The notes beneath the pieces were generated by a model. It was given only the letters and a program-made list of their open reading frames with translations. It did no database searches and was not told where the DNA came from. A stretch of DNA of 64,000 nucleotides from Syntrophomonas sp. DTU019 (GTDB lineage Bacteria; Bacillota; Syntrophomonadia; Syntrophomonadales; Syntrophomonadaceae): assembly GCA_913757435.1 (NCBI GenBank), contig CAJYDM010000001.1:310001-374000 (forward strand). Direction: 5' to 3'. The position numbers were made by a program, and so were the translations under genes. Shown one piece after another: positions 1,053-20,628 of this stretch (positions are counted from its first letter, which is position 1; each line of letters begins with the position of its first letter).

Positions 1053-2075
1053 ATGAAAAGCAACAAAATTAGCAAAAAACTATTATTTAGCGCCTGCATA
1101 TGTATACCTGTGGTGCTGGTCTTTGTCTCCTTATTCATAGGACGATATCCCCTTTCGCTGACCGAGGTGGTGACAATTCTTCAGTCAGGGATAAATTCAA
1201 CCACCCCGGGGGTTTCTTCCATAAAACATGCTGTAGTATGGGATATGCGTATGCCCAGGGCTCTTATGGCACTGACAGTGGGTGGCGCTTTGGCGGTCAG
1301 CGGCGGGGCGCTGCAGGGTGTATTCAGAAACCCCTTAGTGGATTCTGGACTCCTGGGTGTCAGTTCCGGGGCTGGTTTTGGTGCCTGTCTGGCTATCATA
1401 TTGTTTGACAACATTTTATTTACTTATATTTTGGCCTTTGCTTTCGGCATATTAGCTGTTGTTTTAAGTTATGTCACTGGAAAGATATATAAGACTGCTC
1501 CCACCGTTACTCTAGTTCTGGGTGGGGTAATAATTTCGGCAATATTTGCAGCCCTGATATCTTTCACCAAATATGTGGCTGACCCTTATGAACAGCTTCC
1601 CGCCATTACCTTCTGGCTGATGGGAAGTCTCTCCCGGGCAAATTACCATGATCTGGCTATAGCCTTAGTTCCAATACTAATAGGTGTAACCGGTATTATG
1701 CTGATAAGGTGGCGAATCAATCTGTTATCTATAGGAGAACGGGAGGCAAAAACATTGGGAGTCAATACTGCTCTATGCAGAAATATCATCATTGCCTGCA
1801 CCTCTTTGGCTACCGCAGGGGCAGTATGCATGAGCGGTATTATTGGCTGGATAGGATTGGTCATTCCTCATATCGGCAGAATGATAGTGGGAAATGACAA
1901 TCGCATTCTGCTGCCGCTGTGCATAGCCCTGGGCGGGAGCTTCTTATTGATTGTAGACAATATCTGCCGCTCCCTGACTGAAGGCGAGATCCCCCTGGGG
2001 GTGCTGACCGCTCTTGTAGGCGGGCCTTTTTACATTTACCTGCTAAAAAAGACCAAGGGGGGTGGAGGATGGTAG
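1053..2075 (+). CDS. FecCD/BtuC-family ABC importer permease (likely molybdate/tungstate)
   Basis: A 340-residue polytopic membrane protein of the FecCD/BtuC family (type II importers). Visible family hallmarks are the N-terminal WDMRMPRALMALTVGGALAV block, the SGGALQGVFRNPLVDSGLLG segment and the coupling region with GIIGWIGLVIPHIGRM. About ten membrane helices are expected from the hydrophobic runs. Classical substrates are corrinoids and siderophores, but MolB of the molybdate/tungstate system MolABC belongs to the same family. The upstream Moco-like riboswitch makes an oxyanion substrate the better guess. The ATPase gene overlaps its 3' end by 7 bp, indicating translational coupling. Confidence 0.9.
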   Translation: MKSNKISKKLLFSACICIPVVLVFVSLFIGRYPLSLTEVVTILQSGINSTTPGVSSIKHAVVWDMRMPRALMALTVGGALAVSGGALQGVFRNPLVDSGLLGVSSGAGFGACLAIILFDNILFTYILAFAFGILAVVLSYVTGKIYKTAPTVTLVLGGVIISAIFAALISFTKYVADPYEQLPAITFWLMGSLSRANYHDLAIALVPILIGVTGIMLIRWRINLLSIGEREAKTLGVNTALCRNIIIACTSLATAGAVCMSGIIGWIGLVIPHIGRMIVGNDNRILLPLCIALGGSFLLIVDNICRSLTEGEIPLGVLTALVGGPFYIYLLKKTKGGGGW

Positions 2076-2911
2076 CTGCTGTGCTTGAGGTCCAAGACCT
2101 GTATTTTGCCTATGATAACAACAGGAAGATATTAGATGGTATCAGTTTTTCCATAGGCCCGGGTGAAATAATGTGTATCTTTGGACCTAACGGCTGTGGA
2201 AAAACCACCATGCTTGACTGCATTCTGGGCCTTAACCGAGTGGAAAAAGGACAAATCTTCATTGAAGGCAGAAGCATATCGGATATGAAGATCGAGGAAG
2301 TAGCTAAATCCGTGGCCTATGTACCTCAAAAACATGAGCACACTTTCGGCTACACGGTCTTGGAAATGGTATTAATGGGCAGGACTGTTCATACCAATAT
2401 GTTCGATTCCCCAGGAGAAGATGACATTGTTGTTGCCCTGGACTGCCTCAAGAAAGTCGGTATGTACGGATTTAAAGATAGAGTTTTCAATAACCTCAGC
2501 GGCGGAGAGGTACAACTGGTTAAACTGGCTCGAGCGTTGGCTCAGCAGACCAATTTGATTGTCTTCGACGAACCTACCGCCCACCTTGATTTTCGACATG
2601 AACTGAATGTGATCAAGTATATGACCAAGCTTATCAAAGATAGCAATAACACGATGTCCATGGTCATGGCAACTCATTTTCCCAACCATGCCTTTTACCT
2701 GGAAAGCCAGGGGGTAAAGACCACCGTGGCGATGATGGAAAATGGCCGTTTCGGTGCCATAGGCAGGCCCGGCGAGGTGTTAAATGAAGATAATATGAGC
2801 AGGATCTTCAAAATTAGAACCAAGGTCTTTAAGAATCTCGAAAAGGATACTGTGCTTAATTATATGATCCCTTTAGATTTTAGTGACGGAGGACAATGGA
2901 ATGAATGCTAA
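2069..2911 (+). CDS. ABC importer ATP-binding protein (FepC/MolC-like)
   Basis: A 280-residue ABC ATPase that powers the adjacent permease at the inner face of the membrane. The Walker A motif GPNGCGKTT lies near residue 40, the Q-loop is VPQKH, the signature is LSGGE, the Walker B is LIVFDEPTAHLD, and the switch histidine is in MATHFPN. These match the FepC/BtuD/MolC group (COG1120). The start ATG at 2069 follows a GGTGGAGG ribosome binding site inside the permease gene, and the 3' end overlaps the binding-protein gene by 11 bp. Substrate assignment rests on the riboswitch and the neighbourhood. Confidence 0.92.
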   Translation: MVAAVLEVQDLYFAYDNNRKILDGISFSIGPGEIMCIFGPNGCGKTTMLDCILGLNRVEKGQIFIEGRSISDMKIEEVAKSVAYVPQKHEHTFGYTVLEMVLMGRTVHTNMFDSPGEDDIVVALDCLKKVGMYGFKDRVFNNLSGGEVQLVKLARALAQQTNLIVFDEPTAHLDFRHELNVIKYMTKLIKDSNNTMSMVMATHFPNHAFYLESQGVKTTVAMMENGRFGAIGRPGEVLNEDNMSRIFKIRTKVFKNLEKDTVLNYMIPLDFSDGGQWNEC

Positions 2912-4004
2912 TAAAATCATTGCCATGCTATTGATCTTGGTTAACCTGGTGTTAGTCTCTGGATGCTCGAGTAGCAAGCCAGTTATGACCACCTCCCCCC
3001 AGCATACTTACATAAAAGTCATCGATTGTGTGGGCCGAGAGGTTGAGGTACCCCAAAACCCTGACCGGATAGCCTGTCTTTTTGCGGTATCCGCGCATAT
3101 GATAGCTATGCTGGGAGACAGCAATAAAATCGTGGCTGTCTCTGAAGGCAACAAAAGGGACTATATGTTTTTAAACATTTATCCGGAGATTGAACAAGCC
3201 CGAACTCCCAAGGGCAATGGAAATTTCAACATTGAAGAATTGTTCAAAGACCCTGTCCCGGAAGTAGTCTTCTGTTATACTGATATAGTTCAAGACGCCA
3301 AGATGATGGAGAAAATTGAAAAGTTTGGTATCCCGGTCGTGGCTATTAGCTTTAAAACCATGCAAGAGCAGCAATACGCCATTTCGCTTTTGGGGCAGAT
3401 AATGGGCCGGGAGGAGAAGGCACAGGCTTATAACGATTACTATAATCACATAATCGAACTGGTCTCGCAAAGAGTCCAGGATATACCCGATAGTAGCAAG
3501 AAGACCGTTTACCATGCCATCAACGAACTGCTGCGCACCGATACCAAGGATTCTTTGCCCGCCAATTGGCTGCCCTTGACCGGTGTCAAGAACGTTGGGG
3601 TAAGCAGCGGTGACGCTGCCCAGAAGAACTTCATATCATTAGAACAGCTATCTTTTTTAGACCCAGAATACATCATCATCAATGGAGTTGATGTAAAAAA
3701 CTATATTGAGGCTTCGGAAAAACTGCACCATCTAACCGCATATCAAAAAGGGAACATTATTCTGATGCCGTTAGGTGTTTCAAGATGGGGGCATCCGTAC
3801 TCAATAGAGACACCCTTGGCCATACTGTGGACTGCTAAAACCATATATCCTGACCGGTTTACGGATATAGATATGCTAGAGGAGACAAAGTCCTTTTACA
3901 AGCAGTTCTTTAATTACGATTTGAGTGAGGATGAAGTGCAAAGAATCATGGAAGGAAAAGATTTCAAGAAAATTGTAGGAGGAGTAGATGCCAGGAGACA
4001 CTAA
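2901..4004 (+). CDS. periplasmic-binding-type lipoprotein of the FecCD importer (MolA/BtuF-like)
   Basis: A 367-residue substrate-binding lipoprotein. The N-terminus is a lipoprotein signal with lipobox LVSGC followed by a Ser-rich linker, so the mature protein should be tethered outside the membrane. The family III binding-protein core is recognisable from VIDCVGREVEVPQNPDRIACL, the long alpha helix typical of this fold, and the second lobe near FLDPEYIIING. The ATG at 2901 is chosen because GGAGG at 2888-2892 precedes it and the signal peptide starts there; an upstream GTG at 2883 lies on top of this site. Together with the two preceding genes it forms a complete importer. Confidence 0.9.
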   Translation: MNANKIIAMLLILVNLVLVSGCSSSKPVMTTSPQHTYIKVIDCVGREVEVPQNPDRIACLFAVSAHMIAMLGDSNKIVAVSEGNKRDYMFLNIYPEIEQARTPKGNGNFNIEELFKDPVPEVVFCYTDIVQDAKMMEKIEKFGIPVVAISFKTMQEQQYAISLLGQIMGREEKAQAYNDYYNHIIELVSQRVQDIPDSSKKTVYHAINELLRTDTKDSLPANWLPLTGVKNVGVSSGDAAQKNFISLEQLSFLDPEYIIINGVDVKNYIEASEKLHHLTAYQKGNIILMPLGVSRWGHPYSIETPLAILWTAKTIYPDRFTDIDMLEETKSFYKQFFNYDLSEDEVQRIMEGKDFKKIVGGVDARRH

Positions 4005-8561: not shown

Positions 8562-9251
8562 CTAGACCAGGAGCAGACCATCTAAATTAAGAACTTCGAT
8601 CTTTCGGTGCGGTTTTTGCCTGATATATCCCGCTTCTTCAAACTCCGTTAATTTGCGGCTGATTGTTTCGGGAGTTGTCCCCAGGAAAGAAGCCAAGTCC
8701 CTTTTACGCATCGGCAATACAAACTCCAGCGGTGATTCTTCGCCGTCGAGACACTCAGCTATGAAAAGGGCCAGTCTGGTTTCGACCTTCTGAGTAGAAA
8801 CCCTGGTGGTTTGTGTCTCCGCTTTTTCCAGCCGACGTGAAAATTCCGCTAGGAACTTCAAAGAGATGGAAGGGAATTTCAAAAGAAATTTCTGTAAATT
8901 CGTGCGCGTAATCAGGCATACTTCGGTGTTCTCCACCGCTTCTGCATAAGCTTCATGAACAGACTCACTGAATAAGGCCAGTTCCCCCGTAAAATCCCCG
9001 GGACCCAAAAAACGCACTAATTGTTCCTTACCTGTTTCAGATAAACGATAAATCCTTATTTTCCCTCTCCTGACAATATAGAGCGAGTCTGATTGATCTC
9101 CAGCCCGATAGATGATCTCGCCCTTTCTGTATGACTCTGACTGAATCGCAGCTGCTATTTCAGCCATTTGCCAATCTTCGAGATGATTAAATATCGGCAC
9201 CAAATATACACATGACCGGTGTTCTTCAAAATCACACTCATGTTGGCTCAT
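8562..9251 (-). CDS. Crp/Fnr-family regulator with FNR-type recognition helix
   Basis: A 229-residue cAMP-receptor-like regulator. Residues about 20-130 form the cyclic-nucleotide-binding-type barrel (GDFTGELALFS), followed by the dimerisation helix and a winged HTH with recognition helix TTPETISRKL. That helix has the E..SR pattern used by FNR to read TTGAT half-sites. N-terminal cysteines at positions 6 and 14 could contribute to redox sensing, but the classical four-Cys [4Fe-4S] set is not complete here. The gene is 20 bp downstream of the P-type ATPase gene, so it is probably the last gene of that operon. Two boxes matching TTGAY-N4-ATCAA lie upstream of the operon and of scdA, which suggests autoregulation. 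Confidence 0.9.
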   Translation of the reverse strand: MSQHECDFEEHRSCVYLVPIFNHLEDWQMAEIAAAIQSESYRKGEIIYRAGDQSDSLYIVRRGKIRIYRLSETGKEQLVRFLGPGDFTGELALFSESVHEAYAEAVENTEVCLITRTNLQKFLLKFPSISLKFLAEFSRRLEKAETQTTRVSTQKVETRLALFIAECLDGEESPLEFVLPMRKRDLASFLGTTPETISRKLTEFEEAGYIRQKPHRKIEVLNLDGLLLV

Positions 9252-9271
9252 TTCAAATCTCCTGTCCCGCT

Positions 9272-11158
9272 TTATCCCAATCCGCTTGCTGCACGGTTTT
9301 TACTATTGAACCCGATCAATCTCATCGCATTCAGTATCACGATCAAAATACTGGCTTCATGGATAAACATCCCCGATGCCAAATGAACATAGTCCGATAA
9401 TACCCCAACCAAAAGGACAATGACAATGGCGACTGCAAAAAAGGTGTTCTGCTTCATGTTGCGGACCGTTGCCTTGGCAAGAGCGTAGGCATGAGAGAAC
9501 TGCATTAGCTTATCCGCCATAAGAACCACATCCGCTGTTTCCATGGACACATCTGTACCGCCTTCACCCATTGCCAGGCCTATATCCGCTGTTGCAATAG
9601 CCGGTGCATCATTGATCCCATCACCTGCCATTGCCACTACATGTCCGGCAGCTTTCAACTTTTTCACAAACTCCACTTTATTTTCTGGTAGTAATTCTGC
9701 TTGAAATTCATCTAACCCGAGCACATTGGCAACTAATTCAGCCGTGTGCCTATTGTCCCCGGTCAGCATAACCATTTTCTTGATACCATTCTGTCTCAAT
9801 TCCGTCAAAGCTCTATGAGCATCTTCACGAATCTCATCAGCTATAGAGAAGACCCCGGCAACATGGCCATCTACCGCCGCAAATATTGCTGTGTTGCCTG
9901 CTTTTTCACGCTTGAGGGCATAATTTGAGACCTCATCGCTAACTTGGATATTTTCAGCATCCATTAGCTTACGATTACCAATCGCTAGAACATAACCGTC
10001 AACTTGAGCCCTAATTCCATTGCCTTTAATAACTTCACCGTTCAATATTTCTCCTTCCAGGCTTAAATTTTTCTTATTGGCTTCCTTGACAATCGTTTGC
10101 CCCAGATGATGCTCCGAAATGGTTTCGGCTCTTGCCACCAATTTAAGCAATTCCTCGCTCCCCAGATTATTGAAGGTCTTGATATCTGTTACCTCTGGCT
10201 TTCCTTTCGTTAAGGTACCGGTTTTATCAAACACAATCGTATTAACCTTAGATAAACGATCCATCACTTCTCCACCTTTGAGAAGGACACCGTTTTTAGC
10301 ACCATTTCCGATTCCGGCCACAGTAGATACCGGTGCCCCGATGACTAGGGCACCAGGACAAGCAACAACCAGGAAGGTAATTGACAAATGAAGATTACGG
10401 GTAAGAGCAAACACAATTATGGATAAGACAACTACAGCCGGTGTATAGTAATTAGCAAACTTATCCAAGAATTTCTGAGTCTTTGATTTAGATTCTTGGG
10501 CTTCTTCGACAAGCTCGATTATTTTGGCAAAAGTAGTGTCATCCCCAACCTTTTCAGCGATAATTTCTATATAGCCGTTATCCACAATTGTGCCGCTATA
10601 AACCTTATCATCCGGTCCTTTTGAGGCCGGCACAGATTCACCTGTAATAGCCGCTTCATTTAATGTCGCTTTACCAGAAACGATACTGCCATCTACAGGC
10701 ACCTTGCCGCCAGAGCGGATAATGATCCGATCACCTTTCACAACTTCATCCACAGGTATGGTAAAATTTCCCCCTTCACGGATGACATCTGCTTCCTGTG
10801 GTGCCATATCCACAAGTGCTTTTAATGATGAACGGGTTTTTTCCAGCGTATGCGCTTCCAAGTAAGCGCCAAACAAAAACAAGAAGGTAACAATTGAAGA
10901 TTCGGTATATTCTTGAATATACAGCGCGCCAAGGACGGCGATGGTCACCAATAATTCTATACTAAAGGCGTTCATGCGCAACGCTTGGAAAGCCCTAATG
11001 GCGATAGGTATAATGGCGATTATGGTCGCCGTGAGCAGAGCCGGGTCCTTATAGCTTTCATATCCTACCAAAGGAAAAAGAAAACCAGAGACGATTAGTA
11101 TCCCGGAAATGGCCATAAGCTGATTTTTTAATTTATTAATATACTTAACCATCTTCAT
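9272..11158 (-). CDS. heavy-metal P1B-type ATPase with CPG membrane motif
   Basis: A 628-residue metal-exporting ATPase. The actuator loop has TGES (residue ~173), the metal-site helix has CPG at 267-269 in place of the usual CPC, the phosphorylated aspartate is D311 in DKTGT, and the hinge motif is GDGINDAP. No N-terminal HMA domain is present; the overlapping upstream gene encodes one separately, as if the domain had been split off. The C-terminal helix contains NAMRL, as in Zn/Cd/Pb-type pumps. Its position in an FNR-linked cluster with an iron-sulfur repair gene suggests a role in metal homeostasis during redox or nitrosative stress. The metal is not certain. Confidence 0.9.
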   Translation of the reverse strand: MKMVKYINKLKNQLMAISGILIVSGFLFPLVGYESYKDPALLTATIIAIIPIAIRAFQALRMNAFSIELLVTIAVLGALYIQEYTESSIVTFLFLFGAYLEAHTLEKTRSSLKALVDMAPQEADVIREGGNFTIPVDEVVKGDRIIIRSGGKVPVDGSIVSGKATLNEAAITGESVPASKGPDDKVYSGTIVDNGYIEIIAEKVGDDTTFAKIIELVEEAQESKSKTQKFLDKFANYYTPAVVVLSIIVFALTRNLHLSITFLVVACPGALVIGAPVSTVAGIGNGAKNGVLLKGGEVMDRLSKVNTIVFDKTGTLTKGKPEVTDIKTFNNLGSEELLKLVARAETISEHHLGQTIVKEANKKNLSLEGEILNGEVIKGNGIRAQVDGYVLAIGNRKLMDAENIQVSDEVSNYALKREKAGNTAIFAAVDGHVAGVFSIADEIREDAHRALTELRQNGIKKMVMLTGDNRHTAELVANVLGLDEFQAELLPENKVEFVKKLKAAGHVVAMAGDGINDAPAIATADIGLAMGEGGTDVSMETADVVLMADKLMQFSHAYALAKATVRNMKQNTFFAVAIVIVLLVGVLSDYVHLASGMFIHEASILIVILNAMRLIGFNSKNRAASGLG

Positions 11159-11385
11159 ATCTCCTCGTTTAGCTTTTTAAGCTTTACAGTGTGACCCCAG
11201 CTTAGAATCAGACCCTCTATATGCTCCGCATTTATCTTGGTCTCATCGAATTCCGCCCGAATCCTGCCCAGCCTCGGAAAAACCTGCACGGCCATGACAC
11301 CACCCGCTTGTGATAATTTAGCTTCAATCTGTTTAACACAACCGGGACAGTTCAGCGGTGTTATCTGAAACAAGGCTTTGCTCAC
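11155..11385 (-). CDS. stand-alone HMA metal-binding protein (CPGC motif)
   Basis: A 76-residue heavy-metal-associated domain protein with the ferredoxin-like fold pattern and metal motif NCPGC near residue 13. It would bind a soft metal ion and deliver it to the P-type ATPase or regulate the pump. The stop codon overlaps the ATPase start by 4 bp (ATGA), so the two are translationally coupled. The ATPase itself lacks an HMA domain, and this protein supplies it in trans. The promoter upstream carries an FNR-type box. Confidence 0.85.
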   Translation of the reverse strand: MSKALFQITPLNCPGCVKQIEAKLSQAGGVMAVQVFPRLGRIRAEFDETKINAEHIEGLILSWGHTVKLKKLNEEI

Positions 11386-11421
11386 CTATACTCCTCCCTC
11401 TCGTTTCCTCTTGCTGCACTA

Positions 11422-11463
11422 ATCATATTTCAAATCAGAGCATAAGCCATTGATCATAATCAA
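11422..11463 (-). promoter_or_regulatory. FNR-type box and -10 element of the metal-ATPase operon
   Basis: TTGATCATAATCAA (11450-11463) is a perfect TTGAT-N4-ATCAA FNR box. On the minus strand a TATGAT -10 element lies at 11427-11422, giving a start site near 11415. The box centre is then about 41.5 bp upstream, the class II activator position. It controls the HMA-ATPase-regulator operon. Confidence 0.8.
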
Positions 11464-11612
11464 GATTTCATTATAAAAACTTGACTCGCTGATGTCCCTT
11501 CAAGCGCACCAACGAGCCTTGGTTTTTCTATGCCTGTCACTCTTAAAACCCTATACTTATGATAGTATAAAACAAGCCAGGGTCTCATTTTGGACCATGG
11601 CGAATAGATAAA

Positions 11613-11834
11613 TCAAGAGCCTTTTGAGGCTATTACTGAATAACCTAAGTTTTCAATGGTAAGTTTCAATTTGTCGGCACTGGTTTGGGTATCATCAAAT
11701 TCCGTTTTCACCTTACTTGAGTTGAATAATACTTTTACCGTATCGACCCCTTTGGCCTTGGTCAATGTGGATTCGATTTTTTTAACACAGGTCGGACAGG
11801 TCAATGGCTCTAATTGAAATTCTGCTTTGGCCAT
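11613..11834 (-). CDS. second HMA metal-binding protein (CPTC motif)
   Basis: A 73-residue heavy-metal-associated protein with metal motif TCPTC near residue 13, paralogous to the HMA protein downstream. Together the two give the cluster two different small metal carriers for one pump. The start is preceded by a GGAG-type site. It is separated from the next gene by 227 bp that contain the FNR-type promoter, so it may have its own transcript. The metal bound is unknown. Confidence 0.8.
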   Translation of the reverse strand: MAKAEFQLEPLTCPTCVKKIESTLTKAKGVDTVKVLFNSSKVKTEFDDTQTSADKLKLTIENLGYSVIASKGS

Positions 11835-11967
11835 ACTGGGTTTTCACTCCTTCCATTTGATTTTCCTCAGATCCAGCGGTGTTCACTAATTGGTCAAAAT
11901 ATTCTATACTTATGACGATCTTCAGTTATTCTTCGCATTCATTACTGTACTGATTCTCATGGCGATA

Positions 11968-12663
11968 TTAGTAACGTTTGAATAGAACACTATTTTCTTT
12001 AGCGATATGAAGGAACACATCATCGGCTAACTCATGAAGCTTCTGATAAACCGTCTTAACTGTAGCACACGCATACTCTGGCGGCGTGAAATGGTCGGTT
12101 TCCTTGATCATACGCTTAATAATCCTTCCAGCACCATCGTGCTCACCTTCTAATTCGTTAATAAGTGATCGTATGGCTGCTAGATCTTCAGGTGTTTTAT
12201 CTCCCTTTAGCATTGCCGGGAAAAGTTCCTGCTCCTCTTTTGCAAAATGTTCCTCCAGTTCCAGCTTCAGTTCACTGAAGCTCCGATGCACCTTGAGCAT
12301 TAAGTCCTTGCCATGCTCATAATGGACCAGCAAAATCAAATTGACGAGCTTATCAAGCTCCTTCCATAAGGCACGTTCTGACAGATGATGAGTATCCAGG
12401 ATGAGGTCAATCAGTTCCTCATCAGACAATTCAGACACAGGCAGTTCCCGATTTGGTCTCGCTAAATAATCACTGTATGCGTTCTGTACCTCAGTGATGA
12501 AATCTGGGGTAAGGCCTGCTTCTATTATAGCTGACTCAAGGGAGCGATCCCCTTGGCAGCAGTAGTCAATTTGCAGTTCATTTAAGCGTGAAGTAATGGC
12601 GGGAAAAAAAGTTACAAGTTCGCCCAACTCGGTTTGGCCGTTAATTGTAATGGTTTGCCTCAT
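11968..12663 (-). CDS. scdA: iron-sulfur cluster repair di-iron protein (RIC/ScdA)
   Basis: A 231-residue RIC-family protein. The N-terminal ScdA_N domain has the typical LGELVTFFPAITSRLNEL region and the YCCQGD cysteine pair. The C-terminal half is a hemerythrin-like four-helix bundle with the expected His and Glu residues (LLVHYEHGKDL, ELEEHFAKEEQELFP, EGEHDGAG, DVFLHIAKEN) for a di-iron site. The family repairs iron-sulfur clusters damaged by nitric oxide or oxidants. GGAGGGAG precedes the ATG. An FNR-like box lies 72 bp upstream, matching known nitrosative or anoxic control of this family. Confidence 0.92.
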   Translation of the reverse strand: MRQTITINGQTELGELVTFFPAITSRLNELQIDYCCQGDRSLESAIIEAGLTPDFITEVQNAYSDYLARPNRELPVSELSDEELIDLILDTHHLSERALWKELDKLVNLILLVHYEHGKDLMLKVHRSFSELKLELEEHFAKEEQELFPAMLKGDKTPEDLAAIRSLINELEGEHDGAGRIIKRMIKETDHFTPPEYACATVKTVYQKLHELADDVFLHIAKENSVLFKRY

Positions 12664-13075: not shown

Positions 13076-13732
13076 CTACTGCGAACCTATCAAGTTCTGT
13101 GCTCTTATCCAGTAACCGGCAGCCTCGGTGCGGTTAGAGACATTCAGTTTCTTGAATATGCTGCTGACATAGTTGCGCACCGTCTTTTCAGATATGCCCA
13201 TAACTTCAGCGATCTCACAGTTGGATTTACCCTGACTCAGTATTTCTATTATGGCTTTCTCTTTGCAGCTTAAATTACTTCCTTCGGCGGCAAGTTCACT
13301 ATCATTGCCGGAAATATTGTTAAAAACACCTTCGGTTACGGTAACATCCAGAACGCAATCGCCTTCATGAACCCGAATAATGTTTTTTATCAGATCAAGG
13401 CTGTCGATGTTTTTTAGCAAATAGCCATCCGCACCTGCCCGGATGGTTTCTATGACCATCTGGTTTTGCCTGAACGCCGTTAGAATAACGACTTTGATAT
13501 TGGGAAAGCGCCGTTTAATAGCCAGACATCCATTAACGCCGTCACCGTCCGGCAGCCTGAAATCAAGCAGTATCACGTCGGGATCCGTGTCTTGCAAAAT
13601 ATCGATTGCTTCCTGAAGGCTGCTGGCCTCTCCGCAAACTGAAATTCGGGAATCTGACTCCAAGATCAGTCTTAACCCGTCTCTGACTATATTGTGGTCA
13701 TCTATTAAAAACACCTTGATGCTCTGGCTCAT
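13076..13732 (-). CDS. NarL/LuxR-family response regulator
   Basis: A 218-residue two-component response regulator. The receiver domain has the acidic pair DDH near residue 11 and the phospho-acceptor D57 in LLDFRLPDGDG. The C-terminal LuxR-type HTH contains EIAEVMGISEKTVRNYVSSI. Its start overlaps the sensor kinase stop by 4 bp, so the pair is co-translated. The operon begins with apbE and also encodes the NusG_II and EcfT-like proteins, so it most likely controls the flavin/electron-transfer genes. Candidate binding repeats lie in the divergent promoter region. Confidence 0.93.
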   Translation of the reverse strand: MSQSIKVFLIDDHNIVRDGLRLILESDSRISVCGEASSLQEAIDILQDTDPDVILLDFRLPDGDGVNGCLAIKRRFPNIKVVILTAFRQNQMVIETIRAGADGYLLKNIDSLDLIKNIIRVHEGDCVLDVTVTEGVFNNISGNDSELAAEGSNLSCKEKAIIEILSQGKSNCEIAEVMGISEKTVRNYVSSIFKKLNVSNRTEAAGYWIRAQNLIGSQ

Positions 13733-15093
13733 GATACTGTTTCCTCCCAGGGTATTCTCAGTTCTATGCGAGTGCCTTTGAGCAGGGATTCAATTTGGAA
13801 AAACCCATTCGCCCTTTGAGCTCTTTCTTTCATAGAACGGATGCCGAAATGCTGTTTCAAGTTCAGGTCTTGATGGGAAATGCCTTTCCCATTATCAATG
13901 ATGGTGACATAAATAAAATCCGGGCTTCCTTCAAGCAATATTTCAGCATGATTCGCTTTAGAATGCTTGATTATATTGGTTACCGCTTCCTGGACAATAT
14001 AATAGATTTGGGTAGTCTTCTCCGGTAATATATTGCCGCTTAGATAAGGTGAGATCTTCCACTGCAGGGTTATTGTTATTTTCTGACTGTTGTTATATTT
14101 GTTAACCAGTTCCTCCAGGCTGTCTTTTAATTTGGTCAATTCGATCTCATCCAAAGCATTGACGGAAATAAACGCTCTGGTCTTGTTAATAGCTGTGGTG
14201 AGGTTTGACTTCACCTCTGCCAATACGTTCATTTGCAGAGCCTGATCGGGGCATTTGGATACATACTCAAGTTTTAGGCCAGTGGCATACAATTCCTGAA
14301 TAATGCTGTCATGTATCTCCAAACCCAATCTACCTCTCTCTTCCGCCGCTATCCTCATTTTTTCCAATTGGTACAGCCTTTCCTCCTGCTCCCAGCTAAA
14401 GGTGTCGATTACCTTGATAAGCAGAAGTACAATGATAAATCCAACTATGGCCTTAAAGGCAAGGGTCATATAGGAGAAATATTCTGGCACAAACAGGGTT
14501 TTTGAACTGAGCAAACCTTCTACAAAACCATACGCCAGTAAGACCAGGGCCAAATTCTGATACCTTCTCGATATTTCCACAGATTTGGCCTTAATCAAGC
14601 GGGCATTGAAATAAAGGGCTGCAGAACCTACAACACATGCGGGGATAGCCAGGAGGTATCGTACAGCAACCGTATTATACAGCTTGTTGGTCATATGAAA
14701 CTGAGTTCCATAGATAGTTATGAACAAATCGAAAAATAACAGATACAGCAAAAAACCAACCAGAGGCACCCGCAGTAAAATATTTTTGTATTTGTTTCGG
14801 ACCGGCAGCAACTCCAAGCCAAAATGCAACAAAAAAGCGAAGGATAAGGCCTTTAATATGAGATTAGCGTAATACACCTCAGTATGCAGGTAGGGATGGC
14901 ACAACTCCAGTTTGATTATCATGGTGACCCATTCACTGATACCGTGAGCTATTCCGAAAAAACCCAGATATTTCAATGACTTGATCAGGGGAACATTCAT
15001 TATTTTGGCATCTCTTTGTATCAGGGCAAAGATACCCATAATTATCATGGAGAATCCATACACAAGATATAGCATGAATTGAGTTATGGTCAT
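13729..15093 (-). CDS. membrane sensor histidine kinase (HisKA_3/NarX class)
   Basis: A 454-residue kinase. The N-terminal ~230 residues hold about seven hydrophobic segments, a membrane sensor domain without a recognised ligand fold. The HisKA_3 helix has the phospho-acceptor H261 in LEIHDSIIQELYATG. The ATPase domain has the N-box EAVTNIIKHSKA, the G-box DNGKGI and GIRSMKERA. It pairs with the NarL-type regulator whose gene overlaps its end, and its own start overlaps the EcfT-like gene. A membrane-embedded sensor next to quinone-linked redox genes could sense quinone state, but this is inference. Confidence 0.93.
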   Translation of the reverse strand: MTITQFMLYLVYGFSMIIMGIFALIQRDAKIMNVPLIKSLKYLGFFGIAHGISEWVTMIIKLELCHPYLHTEVYYANLILKALSFAFLLHFGLELLPVRNKYKNILLRVPLVGFLLYLLFFDLFITIYGTQFHMTNKLYNTVAVRYLLAIPACVVGSAALYFNARLIKAKSVEISRRYQNLALVLLAYGFVEGLLSSKTLFVPEYFSYMTLAFKAIVGFIIVLLLIKVIDTFSWEQEERLYQLEKMRIAAEERGRLGLEIHDSIIQELYATGLKLEYVSKCPDQALQMNVLAEVKSNLTTAINKTRAFISVNALDEIELTKLKDSLEELVNKYNNSQKITITLQWKISPYLSGNILPEKTTQIYYIVQEAVTNIIKHSKANHAEILLEGSPDFIYVTIIDNGKGISHQDLNLKQHFGIRSMKERAQRANGFFQIESLLKGTRIELRIPWEETVS

Positions 15094-15863
15094 ATGATAA
15101 ATCCATTCCCTTTTTCGATCATATAGAGCATAGTCATCAGTGCAGAGAGGCTGAGAACAGCCATCCCCTCAAGCCTGGTCATTCTGAAACTATAATCGAA
15201 TATATCCTCGGCGTTTACTTTTTCCACCAACGCTTCAATGCTGTCCAGCTTCTGAAATGACTCAACTAGTGAGGCTACAATAAGCTGTGATATTCCATTG
15301 AACTTGGCCTTGATTTTTTGCTGCTTTCCCCCCACCACCGCCCGGGCGTGGTCCAGAAAGCGAGTTTTCATATCCTCCCCGCTGCCTTTCAAGTCCATTA
15401 CAATGCACATAACAACCTTGAGGTAATCCTGAACCGGAACTTTCAATAGCTTCAAAGGCCATAATAGCTTATCCAGCAAACCCAGAAAAGTCGGCATGGG
15501 GGTGGTATAAATATAGAGCATGCTCACATACCAAATGATCAACAACCTAAATAATCTCAGAATTAACTCAGTAGTGTGCTGCTTGCTAACAAAGGCCGGA
15601 TCATTCGTCAGATAATAAAGCAATAGATTTATTGAAATACCGAAAAGATACGGGATCAATACAATAATGCAATAGGATGCGGCACTGAGCAATAAAGCGC
15701 GATATTGGACCCTCAACGCCATGGATATAAACAGCAAATAAACCACAAACAGCCCATAACTGATCTGCTTCTCGACATAAAACGGCAGCGCGGCCACTAC
15801 TATGGCCAGGAGGAATTTGATAGATCCATCCATTTCAGCGCAGTTACCTAATGCTCTGTTCAT
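15090..15863 (-). CDS. EcfT/CbiQ-like transmembrane protein
   Basis: A 257-residue membrane protein of the CbiQ/EcfT type. Five or six hydrophobic segments surround a cytoplasmic region with FLDHARAVVGGKQQKIKAKF, which resembles the coupling helices of energy-coupling-factor transporters. No ATPase genes are nearby, so it is not a complete ECF transporter. In other Firmicutes EcfT-like proteins occur with Gx/RibU-like proteins and ApbE in flavin-based extracellular electron-transfer loci, where they may help flavin export or membrane redox transfer. AAAGGA lies 7 nt before the ATG, and the 3' end overlaps the kinase gene. Confidence 0.75.
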   Translation of the reverse strand: MNRALGNCAEMDGSIKFLLAIVVAALPFYVEKQISYGLFVVYLLFISMALRVQYRALLLSAASYCIIVLIPYLFGISINLLLYYLTNDPAFVSKQHTTELILRLFRLLIIWYVSMLYIYTTPMPTFLGLLDKLLWPLKLLKVPVQDYLKVVMCIVMDLKGSGEDMKTRFLDHARAVVGGKQQKIKAKFNGISQLIVASLVESFQKLDSIEALVEKVNAEDIFDYSFRMTRLEGMAVLSLSALMTMLYMIEKGNGFII

Positions 15864-15873
15864 AGCTGATCCT

Positions 15874-16248
15874 TTAGTCCTTTAATATCCTGACAATAGT
15901 TCTGCTGGGCATGCAAATAGCCTGTTCACCAGGTTGAGTCAAGGTGCCGGTTTTGACACAAATCTTATCAGGGCAGTCAGCCTCTTTAAATCTTATTGAC
16001 CCCTTTTCAGCCACAATAGTCACCTCAATGCCGTCATCGAGAGTAATATACTGCGGGGCTTGCACCGTACTGAGGTCCAATTCCGCCACTTTGCTGCCAT
16101 TGCGGGTAACAACGGCTATAGATCGGTCATCAGGCTCGCCCTGGGCTGTTCCCGAGTTAAAGTAGAAACCGAGTGATGCCAGCACAAGTAATAGTCCCAA
16201 GGTAAATACAATAAGGTCGCCCATTTTCAATCTCTTGATTTTGTCCAT
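15874..16248 (-). CDS. NusG_II-domain exported protein
   Basis: A 124-residue protein with an N-terminal membrane anchor (GDLIVFTLGLLLVLASLGFY) and a single extracytosolic NusG domain II-like beta domain. It contains ADCPDKICVKTG and GEQAICMPSRTIVRI, including the conserved Cys residues of the family. Such proteins are repeatedly found with apbE and EcfT/Gx genes. Their biochemical role is not settled; a redox or flavin-transfer role is proposed from context. It lies 23 bp downstream of apbE and 10 bp upstream of the EcfT-like gene, in one operon. Confidence 0.85.
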   Translation of the reverse strand: MDKIKRLKMGDLIVFTLGLLLVLASLGFYFNSGTAQGEPDDRSIAVVTRNGSKVAELDLSTVQAPQYITLDDGIEVTIVAEKGSIRFKEADCPDKICVKTGTLTQPGEQAICMPSRTIVRILKD

Positions 16249-16271
16249 GTCTAATACCCCGCCTAAATCGG

Positions 16272-17333
16272 TTATGGCTGATAAACGTATCCGCTGCTCT
16301 CCCCGTGAAAATCGAAACTATCCTTTAACCCTTCAGTTACATAGACTTTTTTGTCAACAGTGATAAAAACCGCCTCAACTCCTCCGAATTGCCTGATTAA
16401 GTCCCTCCCCTTCTCCAATCCTAAAATATATACAGCGGTGTCTAATGCATCCGCATCTAAAGAGGAATCAGTTATCAGGGTCACGCTCATCAGATCAGAT
16501 TTGGCCGGATATCCCGTAAACGGGTCCAAAATATGATGATAACGGCGTCCGCTAGCGATGAAATAGCGTTGGTCGTCTCCGGCAGTCACAACTGCCTTGC
16601 TGATTACGTTGACGACTCCAATGTCCCTCCCCTTGTCCATCCCCTCAGGACGGGGATCGCGGATCCCCACTTTCCAGGGAGTACCGTCGGGCTTGCCTCC
16701 CAGAGTAACCACATTACCACCCAAATTGATAAAGGCTGATTGAATGCCATGCCGTTTGTATATTTCAATCACGGCATCACCGGCAAAACCTTTGGCAATG
16801 CCTCCGAGGTCAACCATTTGACCTTGGTTTTTAATCCTGGCGACATTATCATTGATCTCTATGTCCCGGTAATCGATAAGGGGCAGCAATTTATCCAATT
16901 CATCAGGTGAGGGAATATGTTCCCGGTCGCTTCCTATTCCCCATGCTTTTACCAGGGGGCCAACGGTGATGTCAAAGGCTCCGCCACTCATGGCGGACAC
17001 CTGATTGGCTTTGTTTATGATTCGCGTTGTGATCGGGTCAACCTGTATGGCCTTAATTCCGGCATTATTATTAAGCCTGTAAACATCTCCTCGAGAATCA
17101 TTAAATGTCAGCAATTGGTCCAACCTTTCGATCTCATGGGCAGCTTCACCGGCTGCGGCCTGACCGTTTGCCCCATATACCTTTTGAGAGATTACTGTTC
17201 CCATAGCAAAGGAATCGTGCTCAAACGCTTCTGCAGCACCCTGCCTGTCCGAGCCGTAGGCTGTAAATATCAAAACCACGGTGACCATAAACACCATCAA
17301 TGGTGTTAGCAATGTCAAGGGTTTACGCAACAT
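16272..17333 (-). CDS. apbE: FAD:protein FMN transferase (ApbE)
   Basis: A 353-residue ApbE protein that would covalently attach FMN to Ser/Thr in flavinylation motifs of exported proteins. An N-terminal signal or anchor helix (PLTLLTPLMVFMVTVVLIF) places it outside the membrane. Family motifs are FAMGTVISQKVYG, GAFDITVGPLVKAWGIG, VDLGGIAKGFAGDAVIE, AFINLGGNVVTLG and HHILDPFTGYPAKS. The ATG at 17333 is preferred over one at 17408 because it begins the signal sequence and follows a GGGGGGAGAAGGAG site. It heads the operon with NusG_II, EcfT-like and two-component genes. A probable target with a DxxSGAS motif is encoded divergently. Confidence 0.93.
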   Translation of the reverse strand: MLRKPLTLLTPLMVFMVTVVLIFTAYGSDRQGAAEAFEHDSFAMGTVISQKVYGANGQAAAGEAAHEIERLDQLLTFNDSRGDVYRLNNNAGIKAIQVDPITTRIINKANQVSAMSGGAFDITVGPLVKAWGIGSDREHIPSPDELDKLLPLIDYRDIEINDNVARIKNQGQMVDLGGIAKGFAGDAVIEIYKRHGIQSAFINLGGNVVTLGGKPDGTPWKVGIRDPRPEGMDKGRDIGVVNVISKAVVTAGDDQRYFIASGRRYHHILDPFTGYPAKSDLMSVTLITDSSLDADALDTAVYILGLEKGRDLIRQFGGVEAVFITVDKKVYVTEGLKDSFDFHGESSGYVYQP

Positions 17334-17647
17334 CACTCCTTCTCCCCCCTGCAAACGGATAGCTGCGCACTTCTTTACATCAGGCAGCTCCATTATTCTG
17401 TTATACATTTAATCTGGACTATTATAGTCATATATCTGATGCCATTTTAATCTCCAGCAGCCCGGTATTACAACCGGAAGTAAATGCCGGTATTGGTAAG
17501 AGTCAGCTGAATATTACACCATCCTTATTTAATGAACCAGCCTCGGGACAAATGTACCTGAGTTCGGGACATAATTCAGGATTTAAAATATTTCTCAGTA
17601 GTGTAAAACTCAATGTATCATATCAAATTTGATGAGGGGGATATTTA
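17334..17647. promoter_or_regulatory. divergent promoter region with direct repeats
   Basis: This region separates the apbE operon from the flavoprotein operon. TCGGGACA occurs twice on the plus strand, at 17543-17550 and 17564-17571, exactly 21 bp (two helical turns) apart, as expected for a regulator binding one face of the DNA. A 12-bp palindrome ATCAAATTTGAT (17622-17633) lies just before the ribosome binding site of the plus-strand gene. The neighbouring NarL-type regulator is the natural candidate binder, but no binding data exist here. Confidence 0.5.
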
Positions 17648-18355
17648 ATGTCAAAGCTTAAGGTCGTTTCTATGGTGGTTGCCTTAGTGTTGGTTGCAGT
17701 TTTAATTACCGGGTTCATCACCCAGCCCAAGGATTTTACCGTTTACAATGGACAAGCACAAACATCGATTTTCCGTGTCGGCCCCGGTAAAGATGCTAAC
17801 GGCGGACAAATTTACTCAATTAGCACGGTAATGGCTGACGCCACCTTTGACAAAGAAGGCAGAATCATCAGTGTACACTATGACGTATTGGAAGTTCTGT
17901 CTCCTAACGACGCCGAACATGAAGGGGTCCCGGTTTTCTCAGGCTGGCCCGGACAGGCTGGATATTTAACTGCTCCTGGCAGTACCAATGAATTAGCCGC
18001 TGAAGAAGTCAGTCAGTGGCGGACCAAACTGGAACGTGGCGACGAGGCTTACGGTATGAATATATCTGAACAGTATGCAGTATATGAAGAATTATTTAAG
18101 GGCAAAACCGTGGCTGAGGTTGAACAATGGTTCGCCAGAAATACCTCTGATAAGAATGGTCGTCCCTTAAAAGCCGAATCAACCGATCCTGGTGACCAAG
18201 CTAAATATGCTCAGCTCACCGATGCTGAAAAAGAGGCTCTGGCCGATGTAACCTCAGGTGCCAGTGTAAGTCTGAAAGACTCCCATGGCGATTTTATAGG
18301 TGCACTGAAAAAGGCTTATGACAACCGTATAGAGGTTAAAGTCCCGGCTAAATAA
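17648..18355 (+). CDS. exported FMN-binding-type protein with flavinylation motif
   Basis: A 235-residue protein with an N-terminal signal or anchor helix (KVVSMVVALVLVAVLITGFI) and an extracytosolic body. Near the C-terminus DVTSGASVSLKDSHG matches the ApbE target pattern (DxxSGA followed by S or T), so FMN would be linked to the final Ser of SGAS. The region SISTVMADATFDKEGRIISV resembles FMN-binding domains of the RnfG type. It would carry electrons outside the membrane. The gene is divergent from apbE, and the membrane and ferredoxin genes behind it form the same operon. GATGAGGGGG precedes the ATG. Confidence 0.8.
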   Translation: MSKLKVVSMVVALVLVAVLITGFITQPKDFTVYNGQAQTSIFRVGPGKDANGGQIYSISTVMADATFDKEGRIISVHYDVLEVLSPNDAEHEGVPVFSGWPGQAGYLTAPGSTNELAAEEVSQWRTKLERGDEAYGMNISEQYAVYEELFKGKTVAEVEQWFARNTSDKNGRPLKAESTDPGDQAKYAQLTDAEKEALADVTSGASVSLKDSHGDFIGALKKAYDNRIEVKVPAK

Positions 18356-18392
18356 GCAAGTCTCAACACGCATCCACAACTAAAGATTTGAA

Positions 18393-18438
18393 GAGGGTAT
18401 CCCCCACAAATGATTGCATTACGGGATACCCTCATTTT
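18393..18438 (+). terminator. stem-loop after the flavoprotein gene (partial terminator)
   Basis: GAGGGTATCCC (18393-18403) pairs perfectly with GGGATACCCTC (18423-18433), followed by ATTTT. It lies between the flavoprotein gene and the Gx-like gene and could reduce expression of the downstream genes relative to the first. Confidence 0.6.
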
Positions 18439-18478
18439 CGAGAAGGTTGTTGAGGTTCTTTTAGAAAGCAGGCCCAGT

Positions 18479-19039
18479 ATGAACAAGAATAGAAGATATG
18501 CGGTCATCATTATACTGGTTACCAATGCCATATTGATATCTCTGCTGGAAGCTATCATTCCGGTGCCAATACCGGTCCCGGGAGTCAAACTGGGGTTGGC
18601 CAATATCATCACCCTTTTGGGGCTGGTATTTCTTCCGGCCGCAGATGTACTGTTGATTGTTGCAATACGTTGTTTCGTGGTGGCGCTTCTCACCAGAGGG
18701 GTAATGATGCTGGCCTTCAGTGTGAGCGGGGGAATTCTTAGTGCGTTGATAATGATCCTGCTTTATAAAAGATTCTCGCCATATTTCAGCATCAAAGGGA
18801 TCAGCATAGCGGGTGCATTGATCCATAACACCACTCAAATCATGGTAGCCTCGTTGTTACTGGGCCAGTTGCTGGTCTTCTACTACCTCCCCATACTGCT
18901 GCTGTCAGCGCTCGTGACCGGTTATATCACCGGCAGAATCGGAGAGATTGCCATAGGTGAACTGATCAAAAAAGAAGTTTTCGATACTCTATCTATTCCT
19001 GAGGAGAGGAGATTGAAATGGATAAATCAAACCAATTAA
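18479..19039 (+). CDS. Gx transporter family / HepS1-like membrane protein
   Basis: A 186-residue membrane protein with about six hydrophobic helices. The block PVPGVKLGLANIITLLGL is the hallmark of the Gx/heptaprenyl diphosphate synthase component I family, which is structurally related to ECF S-components. The start at 18479 (MNKNRRYAV) is preferred because an upstream ATG at 18410 lies inside a transcription hairpin. The EcfT-like protein encoded in the divergent operon could be its partner. Families like this accompany ApbE and flavinylated proteins in electron-transfer loci and may move flavin or a quinone precursor. The 3' end overlaps the ferredoxin gene by 22 bp. Confidence 0.8.
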   Translation: MNKNRRYAVIIILVTNAILISLLEAIIPVPIPVPGVKLGLANIITLLGLVFLPAADVLLIVAIRCFVVALLTRGVMMLAFSVSGGILSALIMILLYKRFSPYFSIKGISIAGALIHNTTQIMVASLLLGQLLVFYYLPILLLSALVTGYITGRIGEIAIGELIKKEVFDTLSIPEERRLKWINQTN

Positions 19040-19674
19040 ACAAAATCAGCCGCCGCAGCTTATTAAAGATGGGCGCTTTGGCTGCCGGAGCGCTGGCTGT
19101 GGGTGTTTTACCCGGGCAAATTGCCGGGGCGGATCCCGATTCACCCAAATACCCCGAGCAATTAGGCTTTATGTATGACCAAACCAAATGCATCGGCTGC
19201 CGCAAGTGCGCCATTGCCTGTAAGAGTGCCAACAAATGGGAAGAAGGCGCCAAATGGCGTCGTGTCATGAGCGGTGCCCGGCCAGATGTTTATCTGTCCA
19301 TGTCCTGCAACCATTGCGAGAACCCGGTATGCGTTGCGGTATGTCCGGTCAAAGCATATAAAAAGCGCGATAAAGACGGGATCGTTATACATGACAAGGA
19401 GGTATGTGTAGGGTGTAAATATTGCCTCTATGCCTGCCCCTACCATGCTCCTCAGTATAGTGAAGCGACCGGCAGGATTACCAAATGCCATTTCTGCTAT
19501 GAACGCCAGGCTAAAGGCCAAAAACCAGCCTGTATAGAGGCTTGCCCCACTCAGGCGTTGACTTTCGGTAAACTGGTCGATCTACAGAAGACTCCGGGGG
19601 GTGTTGCGCAGATTCAATGGCTGCCGGCTCCTGAGCTGACCAAGCCCTCCCTGGTCATCATTCCGAAACAGTAA
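19018..19674 (+). CDS. TAT-exported 4x[4Fe-4S] ferredoxin (NrfC/DmsB-like)
   Basis: A 218-residue protein with a twin-arginine signal (SRRSLLK plus a hydrophobic stretch). Cysteine groups for four [4Fe-4S] clusters follow: CIGCRKCAIAC, CNHCENPVCVAVCP, CVGCKYCLYACPY and CHFCYERQ...CIEACP. This is the layout of NrfC, PsrB and DmsB electron-transfer subunits, which sit outside the membrane and link an NrfD-type quinone-reacting subunit to a partner. A GAGGAGAGGAG site precedes the start, within the end of the Gx-like gene. No catalytic molybdopterin subunit is encoded nearby, so the flavinylated protein is a likely partner. Confidence 0.92.
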   Translation: MDKSNQLNKISRRSLLKMGALAAGALAVGVLPGQIAGADPDSPKYPEQLGFMYDQTKCIGCRKCAIACKSANKWEEGAKWRRVMSGARPDVYLSMSCNHCENPVCVAVCPVKAYKKRDKDGIVIHDKEVCVGCKYCLYACPYHAPQYSEATGRITKCHFCYERQAKGQKPACIEACPTQALTFGKLVDLQKTPGGVAQIQWLPAPELTKPSLVIIPKQ

Positions 19675-19689
19675 GGAGGTACTGAGCAA

Positions 19690-20628
19690 ATGGATATATA
19701 CTGGCATTGGTTAGTGGTTATATACCTATTTTTGGGGGGCCTGGGGGCAGGTGCTTACCTGACTTCGTTTGCCGCCGAGATGGGCTGGCTTGGGGAGAAT
19801 TCCAGCCTTAGACGGGTCGGATACTATATTGGCGGACCTATAGTAGGAATCGGCACCTTATTATTGGTTTTCGATCTGGGGCAGGGGTTTTATAAGCCCT
19901 GGCTGTTGTGGAGACTGGTAACCAATCTTAATTCGGTCATGACCTGGGGAACCATAATTCTGGCGGTATTTATCGCAGTAGGCATGTTGAAAGGCTTCTT
20001 AACCTTTATCAACAGGCCTGTTCCCAGTGTGGTAACGTGGTCTGGAGTGGTACTGGCTATAGCCACCGCCGGTTATACCGGGTTTCTGATTTCAGTGATC
20101 GGCGCTATTCCCTTCTGGGATTCAGCTATAATACCAGTGATATTTTTTATCTCGGCGTTATCTACTGGTCTATCGATTACAGTGCTTTTGAGTTCCATTA
20201 TTGAAAAAGCATCATCAGAAAATAAAGGCCGGGAGGATTTGACCCATATCATCCTGATTGCTGCAGAATTGGTCGCGGTGGTAGCTTTTGTTGGAATCAT
20301 GGCTTCAGGAGTCAATGGCTTAGTAGCCCAGAAATCTGCAATCTTGCTTATTAACGGAAAATATGCGCTTTATTTCTGGGGCATATTTATCGGGTTGGGG
20401 TTAATATTCCCATTGGCAGTATATGCCGTTCAATATCTGCGCCATAGAGCCACAGAAGCAACCGTGGCAGTTGGCGGAAATGCTGATGGCCAAATGGAAG
20501 GACCCAGGCAAAAACAGTCGCTGTTGACCATGATCACCGATTTCTCAGTTCTAATGGGTGGCTTTGCCCTGCGTGCGCTTGTCATTTTCGCGGCTTTGCC
20601 AATATGGGATGGTATTAAGATTGGTTAA
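19690..20628 (+). CDS. NrfD/PsrC-family quinone-interacting membrane subunit
   Basis: A 312-residue membrane protein with about eight to nine helices, beginning with IYWHWLVVIYLFLGGLGAGAYL, the typical NrfD start. Members exchange electrons between a menaquinone pool and an external iron-sulfur subunit such as the one encoded 15 bp upstream. Only the NrfC and NrfD parts of a classical reductase are present. With the flavinylated protein, ApbE and the Gx/EcfT pair, the module looks like a quinol-linked extracytosolic electron outlet or inlet. Direction and substrate are unknown. The operon ends about 80 bp later at a hairpin. Confidence 0.9.
   Translation: MDIYWHWLVVIYLFLGGLGAGAYLTSFAAEMGWLGENSSLRRVGYYIGGPIVGIGTLLLVFDLGQGFYKPWLLWRLVTNLNSVMTWGTIILAVFIAVGMLKGFLTFINRPVPSVVTWSGVVLAIATAGYTGFLISVIGAIPFWDSAIIPVIFFISALSTGLSITVLLSSIIEKASSENKGREDLTHIILIAAELVAVVAFVGIMASGVNGLVAQKSAILLINGKYALYFWGIFIGLGLIFPLAVYAVQYLRHRATEATVAVGGNADGQMEGPRQKQSLLTMITDFSVLMGGFALRALVIFAALPIWDGIKIG

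Follow-up and report, generated by a model that had tools for sequence, protein, structure and literature searches.

The window analyzed here comprises 64,000 nucleotides from the genome of Syntrophomonas sp. DTU019 (3.2 Mb, 100% complete), and it carries, between positions 13076 and 20628, nine open reading frames (ORFs) arranged as two divergent operons, all of them found where the original prediction, made from the DNA sequence alone, had placed them. The leftward operon runs in the order apbE, NusG_II gene, EcfT-like gene, histidine kinase and response regulator, and the rightward operon encodes an exported protein of 235 amino acids (aa), a PF07456 protein, NrfC and NrfD (Table 1). Gene identities were obtained from Pfam and NCBIfam profile searches of the nine proteins, and we hereafter call the exported protein with the ‘SGAS’ motif, a candidate flavoprotein, FMNb, and the PF07456 protein Gx. 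Our results suggest that these genes probably build and regulate a menaquinol:FMNb oxidoreductase, i.e., a system that would couple a quinone-binding NrfCD pair, which is usually associated with molybdenum enzymes, to a protein bearing covalent flavin mononucleotide (FMN). Note that, judged from their homologues, Gx and ApbE probably start within the listed ORFs, near 18479 and 17333, respectively.

Table 1. Genes and sequence elements of the nine-gene block (window coordinates; FAD, flavin adenine dinucleotide; TM, transmembrane segment)
Feature	Position	Strand	Evidence and remarks
NarL/LuxR-type response regulator	13076..13732	-	Pfam Response_reg and GerE; orthologue in 4/4 nine-gene loci
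Membrane histidine kinase	13729..15093	-	HisKA_3/HATPase_c; ~5 hydrophobic segments in the N-terminal half
EcfT/FmnA-like membrane subunit	15090..15863	-	Predicted part of FAD exporter; weak CbiQ match
NusG_II domain protein	15874..16248	-	PF07009, E=3e-25; single N-terminal TM
ApbE (FAD:protein FMN transferase)	16272..17408	-	PF02424, E=5e-89; membrane anchored
Tandem GGGACA element	17545..17574	+	21-bp spacing; candidate response-regulator site before the flavoprotein operon
FMNb	17648..18355	+	Membrane-anchored exported candidate flavoprotein, predicted ApbE substrate; N-terminal hydrophobic anchor
Predicted flavinylation motif of FMNb	18245..18271	+	D200-V-T-S203-G-A-S206-V-S208; Ser206 codon 18263-18265
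Gx, EetB-type	18410..19039	+	Hpre_diP_synt_I, PF07456, E=1.5e-41
NrfC-like ferredoxin	19018..19674	+	Fer4_11, E=9e-28; twin-arginine leader
NrfD/PsrC-like quinone-binding membrane subunit	19690..20628	+	PF03916, E=2e-32

The nine-gene block is a real unit, and the co-occurrence of its parts is not due to chance. Indeed, the co-occurrence survey proposed in the original prediction, carried out here on 54 genomes of the family by an NrfD search and an FMNb profile search, identified three further genomes with a close NrfD (69-74% identity), and FMNb was present in the host genome and in exactly these three (4/4 versus 0/50; Fisher P=3e-6, and 4e-5 when the host genome is left out; both values ignore kinship and are indicative only). 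Within the same two genera, genomes without the close NrfD are also without FMNb, and vice versa. All nine genes were recovered in 4/4 loci, from four genomes of two genera, the block of genome G438 being spread over two contigs with a break inside nrfC. Two arrangements were observed, which differ in the orientation of the half running from apbE to the regulator: divergent in the host genome and in G003, and colinear in G435 and G438. In G003 (19 kb compared), the sole locus with both flanks comparable, homology to the window ends exactly at the nine genes, and in G438 only a weak ATP-binding cassette (ABC) ATPase match was found beyond the block; the flank comparison covers little or no sequence in G435 and in the second G438 contig. 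The two-component system predicted to be dedicated to this locus was also confirmed, with Response_reg/GerE and HisKA_3/HATPase matches and orthologues of both proteins kept in 4/4 loci (60-66% identity to the other three loci for the kinase). In addition, a scan of genome contigs with a single NrfD sequence returned two loci only.

The NrfD of the block is the only one in the host genome; it displays eight predicted TM helices, and its closest named homologues come from Syntrophomonas metagenome-assembled genomes. Ser82 and Tyr129 do not vary among ten relatives and correspond in the alignment to Ser87 and Tyr130 of PsrC, and the Ser87 position is conserved throughout the NrfD-like subunits that interact with quinones (PMC8076601). 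NrfC contains 16 cluster cysteines (four clusters), with Tyr135 located between two of them and matching QrcC Y113, which was shown to be essential (PMC13059093). Its twin-arginine (TAT) leader, SRRSLLKMGA, gives a weak Pfam TAT signal below the cut-off; the NrfC of the sister operon in genome G007 also bears its own TAT leader, and none was found in the NrfC of five molybdenum (Mo)-linked relatives. Leaderless NrfC would be expected in the latter if it is exported together with a TAT-bearing catalytic subunit, and an own TAT signal fits independence from such a subunit. The four FMN-linked proteins group together in the NrfD tree (96/98), as a clade that is sister to G007 (100/99) and lies among the Mo-linked ones. 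The G007 operon (L033:9635-13482), whose NrfCD is 52-59% identical to that of the window, encodes a tetraheme cytochrome c (PF14537), an exported PF00890 (FAD_binding_2) reductase, a TAT-bearing NrfC, NrfD and ResB/ResC-type cytochrome-assembly proteins, and is read from this gene content as an NrfCD-linked, flavocytochrome-c-like respiratory system of the same family as the host. It was documented that cytochrome and FMN domains replace each other in related reductases and that flavin carriers occur in place of cytochromes (PMC8238504). The parsimonious reading would be that this NrfCD lineage parted from its Mo subunit, acquired an NrfC that is exported on its own, and now serves soluble carriers, with hemes in one branch and covalent flavin in the other.

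The host genome also contains a single ApbE, that of the block, whose best solved relative is the FAD:protein FMN transferase 7esa, which we take to be an entry from the Listeria FmnB work. The NusG_II protein presumably corresponds to EetA of Listeria-type extracellular electron transfer (EET); its three cysteines C92, C97 and C112 are invariant across seven relatives, and a metal or redox role for the as yet uncharacterised EetA-type proteins is possible. The EcfT-like assignment made in the original prediction is weak by profile (CbiQ 17.3 bits, cut-off 25), although the protein is conserved with 48-61% identity in five loci, one of them without NrfCD. The ‘Gx/HepS1-like’ gene does match PF07456, but a role as prenyl-diphosphate synthase subunit was rejected, as this family was shown to act as EetB: in Listeria, the export of FAD to ApbE depends on EetB and on the ECF-T protein FmnA, and eetB is accompanied by eetA in 3,328 genomes and by apbE in 2,169 (PMC9973259). 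Together, the two genes are better read as the FAD-export pair FmnA/EetB.

The C-terminus of FMNb, ADVTSGASVSLKDSHGDFIGALKKAY, contains a motif for which Ser206 is the predicted FMN attachment residue. This motif (D-x-x-SGA-S/T-x-S) was found in 6/6 close family members, one of which has A for the first S, and it matches that of canonical FMN_bind (VDTVSGATYSS) in both spacing and C-terminal place, before the last helix. The pattern D-x-x-[ST]GA[ST]-x-[ST] occurs a single time among the window ORFs of at least 100 aa, and its chance expectation in a protein of this size is ~1e-4 to 3e-4. FMNb forms a single-domain unit with one flavinylation motif; its distant relatives are ~350 aa long and contain two repeats, which makes them similar to the two-domain FMN-bind2 proteins of PMC11334425, and they have ApbE within a few kb in 24/29 loci. 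From its sequence, FMNb is likely flavinylated, and of the exported SGAS flavoprotein originally predicted, the motif and the N-terminal anchor were both found, while a match to the FMN_bind profile was not.

In the proposed mechanism, the EetB-like (PF07456) and EcfT-like subunits would move FAD out of the cytosol, and the membrane-anchored ApbE would attach FMN covalently to Ser206 of the exported FMNb. Menaquinol would be bound by NrfD on the outer side of the membrane, and its electrons would travel along the four Fe-S clusters of NrfC, a protein exported separately by the TAT route, to the FMN group of FMNb. FMNb would act as a soluble-side carrier replacing the cytochrome c or the Mo enzyme of related NrfCDs. 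The final acceptor may be any one outside the membrane, i.e., an extracellular oxidant, a partner cell, an electrode or an unlinked reductase, and the two-component system is expected to switch on the FMNb-Gx-NrfC-NrfD operon. The flavinylation-based system with NrfCD originally predicted is upheld insofar as the module (ApbE, EetB-type exporter and one candidate substrate) is tied physically and evolutionarily to NrfCD, extracellular transfer being a putative part of it.

Several observations weigh against this mechanism. FMNb gave no Pfam match even at E=10, and hence does not belong to PF04205 FMN_bind by profile; comparison with canonical FMN_bind by hhalign gave a probability of 1%, and the low-confidence AlphaFold model of FMNb, built from two sequences (pLDDT 61, pTM 0.56), retrieved no significant Foldseek match and no FMN-bind fold. 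The EcfA ATPases are absent from the nine-gene cluster, the rest of the genome not having been searched for them. The link between NrfCD and the flavin module relies on four mutually related loci of one family, and in another family, locus L028 has an orthologous flavinylation module (in the order NusG_II-apbE-Gx-EcfT-FMNb) but no NrfCD, hence the partners are not obligate everywhere. As this locus indicates, the flavin module can be served by other donors, which limits our claim to NrfCD being the donor in this lineage and not a universal partner of the module. The L028 module, together with the NrfCD without flavin module in L033 and an isolated FMNb in Cetobacterium, could even indicate that both parts have separate functions and are chance neighbours (e.g., FMNb for iron assimilation beside an orphan quinone enzyme). 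We regard this explanation as very improbable, since the genes of Gx, FMNb, NrfC and NrfD are tightly packed in a single operon in 4/4 loci, the block survives inversion, and FMNb and the close NrfD show identical presence and absence across the 54 genomes.

The lack of an FMN_bind profile or fold match likewise bears on whether FMNb is the substrate at all, since ApbE could act on another protein and FMNb could be a structural or binding partner of NrfC. This is consistent with the loss of the motif in two FMNb homologues, though both carry a fused canonical FMN_bind domain, and with the scope of the search for candidate substrates, which left out other ApbE substrate types (DUF2271, RnfD type). 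We nevertheless consider a non-flavinylated FMNb rather improbable, given that its motif is kept with exact spacing and in the same C-terminal place as in FMN_bind, and that most of its distant relatives lie beside ApbE. One FMNb homologue gave a weak FMN_bind match (E=0.33), and a strong profile-profile match to this domain was discounted, because it involved only the fused N-terminal FMN_bind domain of the two homologues mentioned above. Pfam, NCBIfam and PDB sequence searches with FMNb yielded nothing useful, and no PF04205 protein was found in the host genome.

Among FMNb relatives, the two-repeat proteins beside ApbE (L078-L095 and others) have ELTSxVTI[TS] where SGA[ST] is expected, which may be an unrecognised variant of the flavinylation site or a lost site. 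In L029:9321-10373 and L030:4024-5076, a canonical FMN_bind domain is fused to an FMNb domain with a degenerate motif, and in L031:9312-10298 and L032:9299-10282, an FMNb-like domain with a TGATMS motif follows an N-terminal LysM, making these proteins candidate cell-wall anchored flavoproteins. Both types of fusion suggest cell-wall or envelope roles, and they too restrict what is claimed for NrfCD.

As originally predicted, NrfCD comes without a Mo catalytic subunit, none being present in any of the four nine-gene loci. Other Mo enzymes of the host are cytosolic-type or leaderless, and those that are exported come with a cytochrome b of their own, for which reason NrfCD was rejected as their partner. 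Locus L054 (G000:C3:126000-144000) encodes a TAT-exported molybdopterin enzyme, a ferredoxin, a TorD-like protein (by position), a five-CXXCH cytochrome, a cytochrome b and ResB/C-type proteins. NrfCD was also considered and rejected as the donor of the host NrfA: in the cytochrome c nitrite reductase locus L056 (G000:C7:70000-79000), NrfH-like and NrfA-like genes are adjacent and accompanied by ResB/C-type cytochrome-assembly genes, so that NrfCD is not needed. A conserved catalytic subunit encoded elsewhere and pairing with this NrfCD, which the original prediction had named as evidence against it, was looked for in the host genome only and was not found.

FMNb could also be only an intermediate, with NrfCD and FMNb feeding a soluble exported reductase encoded elsewhere (fumarate-reductase-like or other). 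The sister NrfCD does adjoin a tetraheme cytochrome and an exported PF00890 reductase, and FMN carriers that supply flavin reductases have been described (PMC8238504, PMC9973259). However, the G007-type reductase has no orthologue or good match in the host genome, where the best hits were partial and, identified by reading, belong to an apparent NadB, encoded next to nadA/nadC-like genes, and to an FAD_binding_2-type protein that lacks a leader; moreover, no further enzyme gene travels with the nine-gene block. We thus retain this intermediate role as a tentative possibility. Electrons could, on the other hand, flow in the reverse direction, FMNb taking them from outside (partner, mineral or low-potential donor) and NrfCD reducing menaquinone, in the manner of QrcCD with periplasmic cytochrome c3. 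The homologous QrcCD reduces menaquinone electrogenically (PMC13059093), and the quinone-site residues shared with it are silent on direction. Outward flow is nevertheless favoured over uptake because the sister operon encodes a putative reductase. In addition, fatty-acid oxidation of the Syntrophomonas type produces excess menaquinol, which also speaks against the reverse direction, and we consider the latter unlikely. Note that these two alternatives are variants of the menaquinol:FMNb oxidoreductase, differing in final acceptor or direction, and their likelihood is not exclusive of it.

Compared with Listeria/Enterococcus-type EET (FmnB, EetB, FmnA, EetA, PplA, Ndh2 and DmkA/B), the block likewise has ApbE/FmnB, PF07456/EetB, an EcfT/FmnA-like subunit, a NusG_II protein and an exported candidate flavinylated protein. 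In contrast, it has no Ndh2 or DMK genes in the cluster, NrfCD forming the quinone link; FMNb has one flavinylation site and the PplA-like substrate two, and a dedicated two-component system is added. A NADH dehydrogenase in the cluster, the operational criterion for EET (PMC8238504), was not found among the nine genes in any of the four loci. NapH-like flavinylated systems (PceC and NosR types; PMC8238504) similarly use quinol-facing membrane and Fe-S proteins that lead to an FMN domain, but NapH-like proteins belong to a different family (PF12801), whereas the block uses a cofactor-free NrfD and an external four-cluster NrfC. NrfC and NrfD have homologues in the B subunit, with its four Fe-S clusters, and the quinone subunit C of PsrABC, DmsABC and similar Mo enzymes; the block differs by the missing Mo catalytic subunit, the own TAT leader of NrfC and a flavoprotein in the place of the A subunit. 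The cytochrome-linked NrfCDs of QrcABCD and MccACD also exchange electrons between quinone and a periplasmic-side redox carrier, which contains hemes there and is predicted to contain covalent FMN here. Finally, the closest NrfCD relatives outside the FMN-linked clade, those of G007, share the TAT-bearing NrfC, but their operon has a cytochrome, an FAD reductase and cytochrome-assembly genes where the block has FMNb, ApbE and the FAD exporter.

None of the ten flavinylation systems in the published survey (RNF, NQR, Nos, Pce, EET, NapH-like, MsrQ-like, PepSY, DsbD and NQR/RNF-like; PMC8238504) was detected in the cluster by Pfam searches of the nine genes, and none of these ten includes NrfCD. 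Flavin carriers do not appear in a review of NrfD-like complexes either, and we found no description of flavinylation joined to NrfD in this sense in the open-access papers searched, which is not proof of novelty. The syntroph ‘Ca. Contubernalis alkaliaceticus’ was reported to have flavin-based EET genes, but with Ndh2 and with scattered genes (PMC10608574). We would advance only as a speculative proposal that NrfCD adds an eleventh class to the membrane electron-transfer systems that serve ApbE-flavinylated proteins, one that would give syntrophic fatty-acid oxidisers a direct, cytochrome-independent menaquinol route to extracellular acceptors or partner cells. If true, this quinol:flavoprotein link would extend both the flavinylation and the NrfD-like families, and covalent flavin would become, after Mo enzymes and cytochromes, a third partner type for a single conserved quinone module. 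Electron transfer based on flavinylation is widespread, and electron exit without hydrogen or formate is debated in Syntrophomonas-like butyrate oxidisers (PMC6093938); the nine-gene block offers a concrete and testable gene set for such an exit.

Concerning regulation, the tandem GGGACA, with 21 bp between repeats, is located upstream of FMNb in 4/4 loci and was not seen upstream of apbE in the colinear loci, in which apbE leads the operon. It matched once in the window and 0 times in 100 shuffles, and is likely the target of the response regulator of the block. A simple promoter scan gave results not above chance, and Rfam returned no match at the gathering threshold, hence no FMN riboswitch at that threshold. 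In the surroundings of the block, genes for a Crp/Fnr-like regulator, a P-type ATPase and the RIC iron-sulfur repair protein adjoin it (window 8562-12663) and are not conserved with it in G003, and a FecCD-type ABC importer with its periplasmic binding protein is encoded at window 1053-4004.

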